From Acidobacteriota bacterium (GTDB lineage: Bacteria; Acidobacteriota; Terriglobia; Acidiferrales; UBA7541), in assembly GCA_013289585.1 (NCBI GenBank), contig JABCZR010000002.1:186001-250000 (forward strand): DNA of 64,000 bases. Reading direction: 5' to 3'. Below are positions 7,486 through 52,652 of this stretch, piece by piece. Each line of letters starts with the position of its first letter. The stretch's first letter is position 1. The position numbers and the translations under genes are program-made. Under the pieces are notes generated by a model. That model searched no databases and was not told the DNA's origin. It saw only the letters and a program-made list of their open reading frames with translations.

Positions 7486-8040
7486 ATGACGCAAAGCTCT
7501 CTAACGCCGGTAGCTCAGAAGTTCATCCTGCACTGGGGGGAGATGGGCACGCGGTGGGGGATCAACCGTACCGTGGCACAGGTGCATGCACTGTTGTTTC
7601 TTTCTCCGCGGCCGGTGCCGGCGGATGAGATTTCCACGACGCTGGCGGTGGCGCGCTCGAACGTGAGCACCAGTTTGCGCGAACTGCAGGGCTGGCGGAT
7701 TGTGCGCGTGGTGCACGTGTTGGGCGACCGGCGGGACCATTTCGAGTCGATCAAGGACGTGTGGGAGATTTTCCGCATCGTTTCCGAGGAGCGTAAGCGG
7801 CGGGAGATCGATCCGACGCTGCATGTGCTGGCGGAATGTGTGCAGGAAGCGAAGTCCGATCCAAAGGGCGATGCGTATACGCGAGAACGGCTGGAGACTA
7901 TGCTGGAGTTTTTGACGGCGATGACGGGGCTTTTCGAGGAAGTTATCCGCATGCCGACGGGCGCATTGAAGGGCGTGGTGAAATTGCGCGGGAAAGTGAT
8001 CACGCTTCTGGGAACGGAGAAGAAAAAAGCGGCAGGGTAG
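7486..8040 (+). CDS. GbsR/MarR family winged-helix transcriptional regulator
   Basis: The 184-aa protein matches the GbsR-like branch of MarR regulators: an N-terminal helical part ([20 protein letters not shown]), a winged HTH with [19 protein letters not shown] as the recognition region, then a wing ([13 protein letters not shown]) and a C-terminal helical dimerisation region ([18 protein letters not shown]). The ATG at 7486 has AAGGAA seven bases upstream. It is first in a compact operon with a DCC1-like protein and two membrane proteins, so it probably controls them and itself. The ligand is unknown. Confidence 0.88.
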
Positions 8041-8062
8041 CGGACGCAAGAAGGCGGAGACC

Positions 8063-8482
8063 ATGATTTCGCTGGTGAGTGAGTACACGGACGGGAAGGG
8101 GCGGCACGCGCGAGGGTGGTTTTTCTTCGACGCGGAGTGCCGGTTCTGCACACGCATTGCGCGATGGCTGGCGCCGATTCTGGAGAAGCGCGGGTTTGCA
8201 CTGGCGCCGTTGCAGGACCCACGCGTGGGTGCGCTGCTGGGATTGTCGCGGGACGAATTGATGAGAGAAATGCAGTTTCTCCTGAGCGACGGGAGCCGCT
8301 TCGGCGGTGCAGACGCGGCGGTGGCGCTGGCGCGCGAGATCTGGTGGGGTCGGCCACTTGTATGGCTTTCAAGGATTCCAGGAATGATGGAGATTCTGCG
8401 CAAAGGATATCTCTGGATCGCAGCACGGCGGAGTTGCGCGGCCGCAGCTTGTCCTGTGGGCGATGCCTCACGGCGCGCGTAG
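8063..8482 (+). CDS. DCC1-like (DUF393) thiol-disulfide oxidoreductase family protein
   Basis: This 139-aa protein has the family signature [15 protein letters not shown] near its N-terminus, giving a thioredoxin-like C26-x-x-C29 active site preceded by an acidic residue. The rest ([28 protein letters not shown], the hydrophobic [17 protein letters not shown] and a late CPVG) follows the usual DCC1 order. It would act in thiol-disulfide exchange, though substrates in this family are mostly unknown. It lies 22 bp after the GbsR-type gene and 19 bp before the next membrane-protein gene. Confidence 0.85.
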
Positions 8483-8501
8483 AGCGGTGAAGGAGGGTGG
8501 C

Positions 8502-8855
8502 GTGAGCACACTTCTTTTGTTCCTCTGGCTGGCGGGTCTCGTACAAGTGGCAATTGCGGTTGCGAATGTTTTCCTTTCGAAGAAGCTGGATTATCACGGC
8601 AATTTGTCGCGAGTTGCGCCGATTATCCGGCAGGTTTTCGTCGTGCATTCCGTATACATCGTCGGCGTGGTCCTGCTGTTTGCCGCGGTGCTGGCGAGTG
8701 GACGCGGGCTCGGACGGTGTCGCGCGCCGGTGCAGCTTCTGTATTACGATGCGTCACTGCGGCGAGCGAACCACTTTGGTGACCTGCCGTTCACGCTGGC
8801 GGCACTCTTCCTGACTACGACCTATGGCGTGGCGGCGCTTGCGCATGCTTCATGA
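8502..8855 (+). CDS. Small integral membrane protein in the yndJ-like operon
   Basis: The start is the GTG at 8502, which has a strong AAGGAGG four to five bases upstream; an in-frame ATG at 8463 would overlap the DCC1 gene and has no such site. The 117-aa product has three to four hydrophobic segments (LLLFLWLAGLVQVAIAVANV, VVHSVYIVGVVLLFAAVL, LPFTLAALFLTTTYGVAAL). Its last codons overlap the next gene in an ATGA arrangement, so translation is probably coupled. I do not recognise the family; its position suggests it works with the YndJ-like protein. Confidence 0.75.
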   Translation: MSTLLLFLWLAGLVQVAIAVANVFLSKKLDYHGNLSRVAPIIRQVFVVHSVYIVGVVLLFAAVLASGRGLGRCRAPVQLLYYDASLRRANHFGDLPFTLAALFLTTTYGVAALAHAS

Positions 8856-9826
8856 GTGGGCTGGCAATGCACAGTGCTCCTGAGCCGCGCTCAACGTTCC
8901 GCCCGACCGTAATTCTTGGCGCGGTGGCTTGGCTTATGCTCGCCGCGGGATTCTGGTTCGGATGGCTGCAACTGGATGTAGTTGAGCTCCTGTTTCTGTT
9001 GGCACCCTGGGTCATGGTTCCCCTTGCGATTTCGTTGATTCCTTCCTTGGATGGTTCTCCGTGGATCGGCATCGGGCTTGGCGGACTCGGTTGGGTCATG
9101 CTTGCCGCGGGAATGTTGGGGACTCTTTCGTTTTTCCAACCAGCAGGTCCGAGAGCGGCCTCACTCGCCGGTGCGTGGTTTCTTGTTTGTCTCTGGTTCG
9201 CGCTGGAGGGCCTCCGCAGACTTTTACGGTATCGCGCACAGTCGTTTACACAGTTTTGCTTTGCCGCGGGCGAGGCCTACTTGATTGTCGGCGGAGCCTG
9301 GTTCGTAGCTTCACGATTGGGCTTGCAGCCTATCGGATTTCAAGAGCCGATCGTTTTACTCACGGTTGTCCATTTTCACTTTGCGGGATTTCTTTCCGCG
9401 GTGTTTGCAGGGCTGACCTATGAGCGGCTCCGAGAGACGCGCTGGCGCAAGCCACTTCGCGTTGCGCTGGCTAGTGCCGTGGCCGGACCGGGACTGCTGG
9501 GCTTGGCGTTCCTCGTAGGGCCCAAGCTGAAGCTGGCAGCGGTGATTCTGATTGTTGTCGGCCAATTTGGACTCGCGACAGGAATGATTCGCGTTGCGTT
9601 TGGCAAGGTGAATTCGGTTGCGCGAGCGATGCTGATTTTCTCGAGCAGCTGCGTGGTTGCCGGCATGGTGCTGGCGGCGAGCTGGGCGCTTGGTGAATTT
9701 CCGCTGCAAGCGTTTGTGGAACTCGGGCGCATGGAACGAGTTCACGGTACGCTGAATGCAATTGGTTTCGGCATTTGCGGTCTGATTGGATGGATGCACA
9801 CGAGTCGGCGGAGCGCTACGTCCTAG
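8852..9826 (+). CDS. YndJ-like multi-pass membrane protein
   Basis: The 324-aa protein is mostly hydrophobic, with about nine to ten predicted membrane helices. Two motifs point to the YndJ family: VVHFHFAGFLSAVFAGL in the middle and MERVHGTLNAIGFGICG at the C-terminus. In Bacillus YndJ is an uncharacterised membrane protein; no transport substrate is established. It overlaps the preceding gene by four bases and ends the operon that starts with the GbsR-type regulator. Confidence 0.75.
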   Translation: MSGLAMHSAPEPRSTFRPTVILGAVAWLMLAAGFWFGWLQLDVVELLFLLAPWVMVPLAISLIPSLDGSPWIGIGLGGLGWVMLAAGMLGTLSFFQPAGPRAASLAGAWFLVCLWFALEGLRRLLRYRAQSFTQFCFAAGEAYLIVGGAWFVASRLGLQPIGFQEPIVLLTVVHFHFAGFLSAVFAGLTYERLRETRWRKPLRVALASAVAGPGLLGLAFLVGPKLKLAAVILIVVGQFGLATGMIRVAFGKVNSVARAMLIFSSSCVVAGMVLAASWALGEFPLQAFVELGRMERVHGTLNAIGFGICGLIGWMHTSRRSATS

Positions 9827-49967: not shown

Positions 49968-51188
49968 ATGGACGAATACGTACTTTCACTAGATCCGAGC
50001 AAGCGCAGCGCCGACACGATCGATTTTCAGACGGCGCTGGGGGCCAAGATTGTCGGGCAGAAGGAAGGCGTCCAGGCGTTGGTCGAGTTGTATCAAGTTT
50101 TCCGCGCCGGATTGAACTCTCCCGGCCGTCCGGTTGGCAATCTTCTCTTTCTCGGTCCGACGGGCTCCGGCAAGACGCGCATGGTGGAAGCCGCGGCGGA
50201 AATTCTCTTCGGAGATCCCCGAGCGGTGGTCAAAGTGGATTGCGCGGAGTTTCAGCATTCGCACGAAATCGCCAAATTGATTGGCTCACCCCCAGGCTAT
50301 CTCGGCCATCGCGAAACGCACCCGCTGATCACGCAGGAATCGCTCTCCGCCAGTCATACGGACAAGCTGAAGCTCAGCTTCCTGTTGTTCGATGAAATTG
50401 AGAAAGCCAGCGATGCGCTGTGGCAATTGCTACTGGGGATTCTGGATAAGGCCACGCTCACTTTGGGCGACAATCGCAAGGTCGATCTGTCTCAGACGAT
50501 TATCTTTCTCACCTCCAACCTGGGGAGCGGTGAGATTACCGACCTCATGGAAGGCGGCATGGGCTTTATCCAGCCGAAGGACAAGCCTGCTGCGGGTCTG
50601 GACGAGAAAGTCGAACGCACGGCTGTGGAAGCCGCGCGACGCAAATTCTCGCCCGAGTTCATGAACCGCCTGGACAAGGTGGTGGTGTTCCACCCGCTGC
50701 GGCGCGAACAGCTCCAAGAAGTGCTGGATATCGAGCTGGGCCAGGTACAGAAGCGCGTTCTGGATACTGCCAACGGGCAGTTCCTGTTTCGGGTGACGGC
50801 GGCCGGCAGGGAATTCCTCCTGCAGGAAGGCACCGACCAACGCTACGGTGCACGGCACCTGAAGCGCGCCATCGAGCGCAACGTCGTTTATCCGCTGGCG
50901 AACCTGCTGGCCACGGATCAAGTCAGTTTGGGTGACCTGGTGTGTATCGATTGGGACCGCAGCCATAATCGCTTGACGTTTGCCCGAGAAGGCGAAGGGG
51001 CGCTGATTGCAAGCCCGACGGCCCAGCCAGGCGGGATTGCCGCATCGGCCGAAGCAAAGGATGGTAAGTCCATCGATGCCCCGGCGGAAGTCGTGCAAGA
51101 AGAGCGCAAGACGCGCGTGGCGCAACCTACAGCTGCACCGGCGGCCACGTCGCAAGCCCGGAAGAAGCAGGATCGCTCCAATAACTAA
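49968..51188 (+). CDS. ClpA-D2-like single-ring AAA+ ATPase, copy 1
   Basis: The 406-aa protein has one AAA+ module close to the second ring of ClpA/ClpB: Walker A GPTGSGKT (63-70), pore loop PPGYLGHRE near 110, Walker B LLFDE (139-143), sensor 1 TSN (182-184), arginine finger in FMNRLDK (234) and sensor 2 GARHLKR (294-300). It lacks the Clp N-domain, the first ring and the ClpX zinc finger. After sensor 1 it carries GGMGF (MGF at 198-200) at the place where ClpA and ClpX carry the IGL/IGF ClpP-docking loop. The last 60 residues are a low-complexity tail. GAGGTGAC precedes the ATG. It could unfold proteins for ClpP or alone. Confidence 0.85.
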   Translation: MDEYVLSLDPSKRSADTIDFQTALGAKIVGQKEGVQALVELYQVFRAGLNSPGRPVGNLLFLGPTGSGKTRMVEAAAEILFGDPRAVVKVDCAEFQHSHEIAKLIGSPPGYLGHRETHPLITQESLSASHTDKLKLSFLLFDEIEKASDALWQLLLGILDKATLTLGDNRKVDLSQTIIFLTSNLGSGEITDLMEGGMGFIQPKDKPAAGLDEKVERTAVEAARRKFSPEFMNRLDKVVVFHPLRREQLQEVLDIELGQVQKRVLDTANGQFLFRVTAAGREFLLQEGTDQRYGARHLKRAIERNVVYPLANLLATDQVSLGDLVCIDWDRSHNRLTFAREGEGALIASPTAQPGGIAASAEAKDGKSIDAPAEVVQEERKTRVAQPTAAPAATSQARKKQDRSNN

Positions 51189-51220
51189 AGTACTTAAAGT
51201 GGAACTTTAACTAGGACTAA

Positions 51221-51248
51221 GGGCGCATCGATGGTGCGCCCCTTTTTG
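51221..51248 (+). terminator. Terminator after the first AAA+ gene
   Basis: GGGCGCA (51221-51227) pairs with TGCGCCC (51235-51241), followed by CTTTTTG. It lies 32 bases after the stop codon, so the two AAA+ genes probably have separate transcription units. Confidence 0.8.
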
Positions 51249-51270
51249 TCGCCGCGGAACTGACACAAAC

Positions 51271-51325
51271 TGTTTCATCCCTCTCACTTTGCACGTGATT
51301 GAAACACAGTCTCACGGGTTGAGAC
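51271..51325. promoter_or_regulatory. Two inverted repeats upstream of the second AAA+ gene
   Basis: TGTTTCA (51271-51277) is mirrored by TGAAACA (51300-51306), and GTCTCA (51309-51314) is mirrored by TGAGAC (51320-51325). Both are perfect and lie between the terminator of copy 1 and the ATG of copy 2. They could be operator sites for a stress regulator; no heat-shock CIRCE sequence is recognised. Confidence 0.45.
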
Positions 51326-51488
51326 AGTTTCCACAATTGCAACACTTGTATGTTGTTGAATTTGTGCTGTTTTTCTGAACCCCACCCTGTGGACAAAATT
51401 GGCCCTCCCCATGCATTAGTTCAGGTTTGCGCGTAGCTGAGACGCGCATTGCGCCCAGGGGACATGGTCGCAAGGAAGGATCGATGAA

Positions 51489-52652
51489 ATGAGAGCCGCC
51501 GCCCGCCAGCAACTGGATCCGAGCATCCGAAGCAACGATACCCGTGATTTTCATGCCTCGTTGCGCGCCAAGATTGTCGGTCAGGAAGAAGGTGTGCAGT
51601 CTCTGGTGGATATGTTCCAGGTCTTTTGTGCCGGACTGAACTCGCCGGGGCGCCCGGTGGGCAACCTGTTGTTCCTTGGGCCGACCGGCTCGGGAAAAAC
51701 GCGCATTGTGGAAGCGGCTGCCGAAATTCTTTTTGGGGACCCCCGCGCTGTTATTAAGGTCGACTGCGCGGAGTTCCAGCATTCCCATGAAATCGCCAAG
51801 CTGATTGGTTCGCCCCCAGGCTACCTGGGCCACCGCGAGACCCATCCGCTGATCACGCAAGAAGCCCTGGCAGCCAGCCACACTGAAAAACTGAAGCTGA
51901 GCTTCCTGCTGTTCGACGAAATTGAAAAGGCCAGCGACGCCCTATGGCAATTGCTCTTGGGCATGCTGGACAAGGCCACGCTGACTCTCGGCGACAACCG
52001 CCGCGTGGACCTCTCGCAGACCGTTATCTTCCTCACGTCCAACCTGGGCGGAGGAGAAATCACCGAACTGATGCAAGGCGGCATGGGCTTCATCCAGCCA
52101 AAAGACAAGCCGGCCGCCGGCCTCGATGAAAAAGTGGAACGTACGGCGGTGGAAGCGGCGCGCCGGAAGTTTTCTCCGGAATTCATGAATCGGCTCGACA
52201 AAATTGTGGTATTCCATCCGCTGCGGCGTGCGCAGCTCGAACAGGTTTTGGAAATTGAGCTCGGCCAGGTGCAGCAGCGTGTTCTGGAAACCGCCAAGGG
52301 ACAGTTCCTGTTCCGCGTTACCAACGAAGGCCGCGACTTCCTGTTGCAGGAAGGCACGGACCAGCGCTATGGGGCGCGTCACCTGAAGCGCGCTATCGAA
52401 CGCCATGTGGTCTATCCGCTGGCCAACCTGCTGGCGACCGAGCAAGTTCATCTCGGCGATCTCGTTTGCATCGATTGGAACAAAGAGCAAGCCCGCCTGA
52501 CCTTCGTTCGTGAAGGCGAAAACCTGGCGTTGCCTGCGCGCCGTCCGGAACCCGTGATGCCCGTTCGCGCGATACCCGCCAAGAGCGGCAAGGCTGTGGA
52601 TGCTCCCGGCCTGACCAGTTCCCAGGAGCCTTCGCCGCGGATGGCCCGCTAA
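51489..52652 (+). CDS. ClpA-D2-like single-ring AAA+ ATPase, copy 2
   Basis: The 387-aa protein is very similar to the one encoded at 49968-51188 along the whole AAA+ part, including GPTGSGKT, PPGYLGHRE, LLFDEIEKA, GGMGF and GARHLKR. The N-terminal 20 residues and the C-terminal tail differ. The high similarity, the same order and the 300-bp spacing point to a tandem duplication with retained ATPase residues. ATG 51489 has AAGGA nine bases upstream; an out-of-frame ATG at 51484 is stopped at once. It has its own terminator. Likely an unfoldase; its partner protease is not in the window. Confidence 0.85.
   Translation: MRAAARQQLDPSIRSNDTRDFHASLRAKIVGQEEGVQSLVDMFQVFCAGLNSPGRPVGNLLFLGPTGSGKTRIVEAAAEILFGDPRAVIKVDCAEFQHSHEIAKLIGSPPGYLGHRETHPLITQEALAASHTEKLKLSFLLFDEIEKASDALWQLLLGMLDKATLTLGDNRRVDLSQTVIFLTSNLGGGEITELMQGGMGFIQPKDKPAAGLDEKVERTAVEAARRKFSPEFMNRLDKIVVFHPLRRAQLEQVLEIELGQVQQRVLETAKGQFLFRVTNEGRDFLLQEGTDQRYGARHLKRAIERHVVYPLANLLATEQVHLGDLVCIDWNKEQARLTFVREGENLALPARRPEPVMPVRAIPAKSGKAVDAPGLTSSQEPSPRMAR

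Follow-up and report, generated by a model that had tools for sequence, protein, structure and literature searches.

Tandem single-ring D2-type Clp ATPases of Acidobacteriota with a conserved hydrophobic-Gly-Phe loop, candidate partners of ClpP

Flexible loops of the IGF type have been described in ClpX and ClpA (PMC9035409). In ClpE, a VGF tripeptide sits in the H-site of ClpP, and a VGF-to-GGR mutant loses the interaction with ClpP (PMC13125188). ClpI is a two-ring class in which LGF is present or absent by subtype (PMC10149685). Here we analysed two neighbouring genes, P0001 and P0002, in a 64,000-nucleotide stretch of an Acidobacteriota genome (assembly GCA_013289585.1, contig JABCZR010000002.1, positions 186,001 to 250,000), hereafter the window. 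Both genes encode single-ring Hsp100 second-ring (D2) AAA+ proteins. The original prediction had taken them for possible partners of ClpP, an interpretation that was partly supported as far as their sequences go. We consider it fairly probable that P0001 and P0002 belong to an unnamed family of D2-only unfoldases which dock on ClpP by a hydrophobic-Gly-Phe loop, and that the duplicates were specialised by their control.

Both open reading frames lie at the positions given in the original prediction (Table 1). Pfam matched AAA_2 (PF07724) in P0001 (E-value (E) 4.9e-34) and P0002 (E 1.4e-32), together with ClpB_D2-small (PF10431; E 1e-14 and E 7e-15, respectively). Weaker generic P-loop and AAA models overlapped the AAA_2 stretch, and the same scan found no Clp_N, second AAA module, ClpX zinc finger or ankyrin match in either protein. 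In NCBIfam, both aligned with the C-terminal ring of ClpB, ClpA, ClpK, ClpG and TssH (for example, with positions 558-848 of 853 in the ClpB model), at scores well under the cut-offs of those full-length models; their leading PDB matches were also the C-terminal ring of Hsp100 proteins. The AAA+ motor is intact in both, with the pore loop GYLG and the motifs Walker A (GPTGSGKT), Walker B (LLFDEIEKA), sensor 1 (TSN), the arginine box (SPEFMNRLD) and sensor 2 (GARHLKR). Pfam and the motif check thus agreed with the predicted complete second-ring module that carries GYLG and has no first ring, N-domain or zinc finger. P0001 and P0002 are 80% identical across their BLAST alignment. The core, described earlier as almost identical, is identical at 281 of 322 positions (87%) and so diverges by 13%, and the tails differ as predicted (9/18 identical in the N tail, 14/66 in the C tail). 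When the 4.73 Mb assembly was searched with P0001, these two were the only genes at E <= 1e-60. The whole assembly holds 16 AAA_2 matches, among them ClpB-like and ClpC-like two-ring proteins with Clp_N (Clp_N loci C5 and C16), a ClpX and an HslU.

This architecture differs from those of the described systems. Compared with class I Hsp100 proteins (ClpA, ClpB and ClpC), each chain has one AAA_2 module in 387-406 amino acids (aa) and no Clp_N. With the D2 ring of ClpC, ClpA and ClpE, the two proteins share the D2 AAA+ fold, a Tyr pore loop, a hydrophobic-G-F/L loop and the D2-small domain (for ClpE, after PMC13125188). However, they have no first ring, N-domain or M-domain, and their clade lies outside the sampled ClpA and ClpC-like D2s. 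ClpX also has one AAA+ ring, a conserved hydrophobic-GF loop and ClpP as the presumed partner, but P0001 and P0002 lack its zinc-binding domain and matched the ClpX model only at E ~4e-6 to 7e-6, whereas the ClpB model gave 2e-70. Among the disaggregases ClpB, ClpK and ClpG, the C-terminal ring of ClpB gave the top whole-protein model score; in contrast to these proteins, P0001 and P0002 have no ring 1 or M-domain, and the compared ClpB and ClpK sequences have no G-F loop.

Phylogenetic analysis placed the single-ring proteins apart. In a FastTree tree of 117 D2 domains with midpoint root, all of them split from the two-ring D2s (ClpA, ClpB, ClpC-like, ClpK, ClpL, TssH and phage two-ring proteins) with supports of 1.0 and 0.924. 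IQ-TREE (48 sequences, 283 columns, ClpX and HslU as outgroup) gave the single-ring clade an ultrafast bootstrap of 97 and the sister two-ring D2 clade one of 94, on a tree whose outgroup branch is long (2.18) and in which many inner nodes are weak. ClpX and HslU of the window genome paired with E. coli ClpX and HslU, and an unannotated Nonomuraea protein (L209) grouped with E. coli ClpB and is to be taken as ClpB-like. Within this sampling, made without B. subtilis ClpC, ClpE and Skd3, the single-ring proteins are a clade of their own, sister to the sampled D2 rings and nested in no ClpA, ClpB or ClpC-like clade; neither tree put P0001 and P0002 with a non-ClpP group. In fold comparison, P0001 came closest to the ClpC chains of ClpC-ClpP entries, at Z 33.3 to 32.5 (root-mean-square deviation 5.3-5.9, 318-328 aligned), and a ClpB chain at Z 32.4 was within 1 of them, which is a tie. 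The earlier description as ClpA-D2-like needs correcting in part: the whole-protein score is nearer ClpB than ClpA, the fold ties ClpC with ClpB, and the proteins are members of neither. Membership in ClpX, ClpA/C, ClpB or Skd3 was excluded by architecture and tree.

The loop after sensor 1 is the feature that points to ClpP as a candidate partner. Both carry MGF there, as had been noted, and it aligns with the MGF of the ClpC-like protein of the same genome and with the IGL of E. coli ClpA. We aligned 76 single-ring sequences from the tree, a set from which near-identical rows had been removed. G occupies position 199 in 76 of 76, position 200 is aromatic in all of them (F 74, Y 2) and position 198 is hydrophobic in 75, while any other position within 187-211 is identical in at most 55. 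The pattern [ILMVFY]G[FY] was found at the loop site in 37/37 rows of alignment A3. Of 41 two-ring rows, 39 had a readable segment and 32 of these, mainly phage ClpA-like proteins, carried such a tripeptide; the regular expression skipped the segment in 3/76 single-ring and 2/41 two-ring rows, and the column counts above span all 76. Among the sequences compared, no G-F tripeptide was present at the aligned site in E. coli ClpB, the genome's own ClpB-like protein, Nonomuraea L209, ClpK, ClpL or TssH. In an AlphaFold2 monomer model of P0001 (mean predicted local distance difference test (pLDDT) score 82.7, most core blocks > 90), residues 196-210 are a low-confidence loop with block means of 68 and 57, flanked by the well-predicted helices 187-195 and 211-226; as modelled, this loop is consistent with a flexible docking loop of the IGF type. 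The conserved tripeptide suggests, short of proof, that these proteins work with ClpP.

Among 297 genomes of the phylum searched, 38 gave 42 matches at E 5e-126 or better, mostly open frames of 380-450 aa, and 63 matched at E <= 1e-60, a list that includes two-ring proteins. A scan of named bacterial contigs, limited to the top 80 among 580 or more relatives, left 79 loci besides the window. Their titles nearly all name Acidobacteria, Acidobacteriota or Terriglobia; the titles of two metagenome-assembled genomes (L053 and L084) name other phyla. A tandem pair is present in 20 of the 79 (L044-L063), where P0001 and P0002 each have their nearest match in the respective orthologue (76-86% and 84-93%) and the frames are open over at least 406 codons for P0001 orthologues and at least 392 for P0002 orthologues. 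In the 24 other genomes of the genus there were at least two matches in 18, one in 4 (two of them fragments) and none in 2, with up to five copies in G336 and four in G340. Outside the tandem group, single copies predominate in the loci fetched. The pair, whose conservation in the phylum the original prediction had named as a check, is thus kept in most genomes of the genus and in the 20 loci. Matches were also found in an annotated phage collection (153 records) and in plasmids (2,248 records), all at < 60% identity. The phage profile phrog_4871 ('ATP-dependent protease', 764 positions) matches P0001 and P0002 with its C-terminal ring at E ~1e-78, though its length is that of a two-ring protein, and phage proteins labelled 'AAA domain containing' in a viral structure library, with 356 and 488 aa, are close in fold. 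Scans of three family libraries with P0001 and P0002 returned no single-ring-length model for the family, and a literature search at title and abstract level, with most subscription papers outside its coverage, found neither a single-ring D2-only ClpP partner nor this family. The single-ring D2-only Clp proteins are an unnamed family common to soil Acidobacteriota and phages.

The two copies differ in their predicted control. P0001 is followed by a terminator-like hairpin (Table 1), and most of the aligned intergenic sequences have a CTTTTTGTC-like stretch at the hairpin site, so P0002 is probably transcribed separately. Upstream of P0002 there are a sigma-54-type (-24/-12) promoter-like element and a palindrome. 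With the window counted in, there are 21 tandem loci, and in these the strict -24/-12 pattern (GG and GC 12 bp apart) preceded 15 P0002 orthologues and 1 P0001 orthologue, compared with 37 of 562 other open reading frames (ORFs) from the same 80 loci, a background taken with a crude longest-ORF caller and including false ORFs. A looser pattern was found before 19/21 P0002 orthologues, the exceptions being L046 and L047. The palindrome stood upstream of 15/21 P0002 orthologues, 0/21 P0001 orthologues and 0/562 of the background. No exact copy besides that in the window occurs in the assembly, but this uniqueness is not significant by count: a reversed-pattern control also occurred in one place, and 11/100 window shuffles gave at least one match with one mismatch allowed. 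The case for the palindrome therefore lies in its fixed place in the 15 orthologues. The genome also has rpoN (E 8.9e-57), and together with the element this makes P0002 a candidate sigma-54-controlled gene. The original prediction had divided the paralogues by their tails. The tails do differ; however, promoter and gene context set the copies apart most clearly, P0002 having the conserved sigma-54-type element and the palindrome, and P0001 orthologues usually following a small gene, cl16 (see below). Genes for sigma-54 activators were seen near extra single-ring copies in two other loci (L087:763-1704, L087:9099-10169 and L088:6513-7589).

From these data a working model can be outlined. Each protein would assemble into a hexamer, the Tyr pore loop would use ATP to pull substrate through the ring and presumably unfold it, and the hydrophobic-Gly-Phe loop would dock the ring on the cell's single ClpP (one CLP_protease match in the genome, E 1.4e-81). 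P0001 and P0002 would then serve as alternative substrate gates of ClpP next to ClpX and the ClpC-like protein. Since they have no N-domain and no first ring, short variable tails or partner proteins would pick the substrates, and one candidate partner is the product of cl16, a small gene found upstream of P0001 orthologues. P0002 would be turned on via sigma-54 and an activator, and P0001 would not. If the loop docks, Acidobacteriota have extra ClpP gates without a second ring or N-domain, and such a minimal ClpAP-like machine would part the role of the D2 ring from the contributions of ring 1 and the N-domain. The model would also give a name to a phage-carried family so far without specific annotation, and would add a route of degradation under sigma-54 control in a phylum that has been little studied.

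Phages offer one case in which the proposed partners occur together. Of the best 80 among 570 viral loci, 29 had short frames of at most 533 aa (L123-L147 and L151-L154, a few of them truncated at a contig end), and the other 51 had long frames. In both trees phage members are distributed over the single-ring clade and account for much of its depth. Phage record G303, which also encodes a large terminase, has a canonical ClpP (PF00574, E 3.7e-82) that is 68% identical to the ClpP of the window genome and shares with it a one-residue insertion relative to E. coli ClpP. This gene lies ~3.5 kb upstream of the single-ring gene on the same strand (L129:3903-4496 and 7734-9125), and the single-ring gene is the sole AAA_2 match in the record. 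The rooted tree, the spread of phage members and this ClpP-bearing phage allow a tentative reading, which we consider less likely than not: the family would be a deep sister lineage of the D2 ring, perhaps from a one-ring motor that predates the fusion, traded between Acidobacteriota and phages, with phages redirecting host proteolysis, sometimes by their own ClpP. An early loss of ring 1 is a conceivable alternative origin.

Several observations weigh against docking on ClpP and specialisation by control. The loop counts come from sequences of shared ancestry and are not independent events, and some family members read FGF, YGF or PGF at the loop, for which we know of no docking data. The whole-protein model score is higher for ClpB, which is ClpP-independent, than for ClpA. 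Linkage to clpP is also rare: the gene was present in 0/80 bacterial flanks fetched and in the flanks of 1/29 short-gene viral loci (L129), compared with 12/51 of the long, two-ring-sized ones. A CLP_protease match occurred in only 2 of 21 viral records searched, G303 and, weakly, G300. Phage G356, syntenic to G303, encodes a ClpP of 91% identity, and its 69 kb contain no AAA_2 ATPase. When viral loci were fetched by ClpP (the best 80 of 164, many of them short and 35 of 15 kb or longer), a single-ring gene was within reach only at the G303 locus (L238); the other ATPase matches near viral ClpP were of ClpX size and score, apart from the two-ring ClpA-like L292 and L313. As for control, among all 100 family genes the strict promoter pattern precedes 27 and the palindrome 15, so the promoter arrangement belongs to the tandem group and shows no sign of conservation outside it.

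The unlinked clpP genes and the scores nearer ClpB would fit single-ring chaperones or disaggregases that act independently of ClpP, as human CLPB/Skd3 does, with the loop serving ring assembly or another partner. Skd3 indeed has the same single-ring D2-type Hsp100 architecture (PMC9934407; PDB matches at E ~1e-28). However, it matches P0001 and P0002 more weakly than bacterial D2 rings do and has ankyrin repeats that are missing here. Moreover, the tripeptide is the constant element of a variable loop and stands at the docking-loop site of ClpA and ClpC, whereas the ClpB-like sequences compared here lack it, and in phage G303 a ClpP is accompanied by a single-ring protein as the only Clp-type ATPase. 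We regard this explanation as doubtful; docking on ClpP remains our preferred reading.

It is also improbable that these proteins are phage-derived motors for virion assembly or host takeover, domesticated by Acidobacteriota for a job not centred on ClpP degradation. The place of phage members throughout the clade would fit such an origin, as would the phage single-ring gene of L126:7244-10049, which lies between two SU10-adaptor-like genes, and for ClpA/ClpX-like AAA+ proteins of jumbo phages a role as translocases or as aids to assembly has been suggested (PMC7824862). But the window copies lie among chromosomal genes with synteny kept across the tandem group, and 18 of the 24 genomes of the genus retain the pair. 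Furthermore, the phage copies L123 and L125 nest within bacterial groups with modest support, as expected of transfer from host to phage.

The gene context of P0001 bears on its role. In 19/20 other tandem loci the P0001 orthologue sits downstream of cl16, which encodes 140-155 aa in the rows aligned (for example, L046:4717-5157). By tblastn ends, cl16 occurs in 39 of the 80 bacterial loci (77 of which have at least 600 bp upstream) and ends 13-87 bp before the family match. It was not found in the window or in L057, and a search of the window's own genome, run without a positive control, gave no match. Upstream of cl16 the strict -24/-12 pattern was present in 2/39 and the palindrome in 0/39. 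Two examples had no Pfam match, the fold search, run with a model of pLDDT 64.7, gave nothing usable (best Foldseek E 0.32), and no relative was confirmed on viral contigs. With no Pfam, fold, viral or own-genome match, we rejected cl16 as a known adaptor, and an adaptor role of its product is only a guess. Its absence from the window, the lower conservation of P0001 orthologues and two genomes (G324 and G326) whose single match aligns full-length to P0002 (83%) might suggest that P0001 is a decaying redundant duplicate and only P0002 matters, but this is very improbable, as P0001 retains every catalytic motif and MGF, its frame is open in all 20 other tandem loci and the place downstream of cl16, where its orthologues usually lie, is that of the single-copy relatives.

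Table 1. Positions of the two genes and of the elements discussed, numbered within the window
Feature	Position	Strand	Remark
P0001, single-ring D2-type Clp AAA+ ATPase, 406 aa	49968..51188	+	ATG start; ORF list, Pfam, NCBIfam
Pore loop 1 GYLG of P0001, residues 110-113	50295..50306	+	
MGF of P0001, residues 198-200	50559..50567	+	proposed ClpP-docking tripeptide
Terminator-like hairpin and T run 3' of P0001	51221..51247	+	consensus match only
Palindrome GTCTCA-N5-TGAGAC	51309..51325	.	candidate sigma-54 activator (enhancer-binding protein) site; 180 bp upstream of P0002
Sigma-54-type (-24/-12) promoter-like element TTGGCCCTCCCCATGCA	51399..51415	+	90 bp upstream of P0002
P0002, single-ring D2-type Clp AAA+ ATPase, 387 aa	51489..52652	+	ATG start; ORF list, Pfam, NCBIfam
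MGF of P0002, residues 199-201	52083..52091	+	proposed ClpP-docking tripeptide

Some further arrangements were seen among the loci collected. On 12 viral contigs (L157, L159, L160, L161, L164, L165, L166, L169, L175, L178, L180 and L190) a long ClpA-like gene is followed closely downstream by a ClpP-like gene, whose product is 33-35% identical to the ClpP of the window genome. The viral two-ring ClpA-like gene at L313:16890-20586 has its second-ring Walker A split by an apparent intein. In the neighbourhood of bacterial single-ring Clp genes, a response-regulator receiver is fused to a trypsin-like peptidase domain at L083:6880-8562 and L091:1435-3108. Finally, the 456 kb viral contig of L125 carries an ORF of 2318 aa (L125:10034-16990) with ParB-like, NUDIX-like and acetyltransferase-like stretches.

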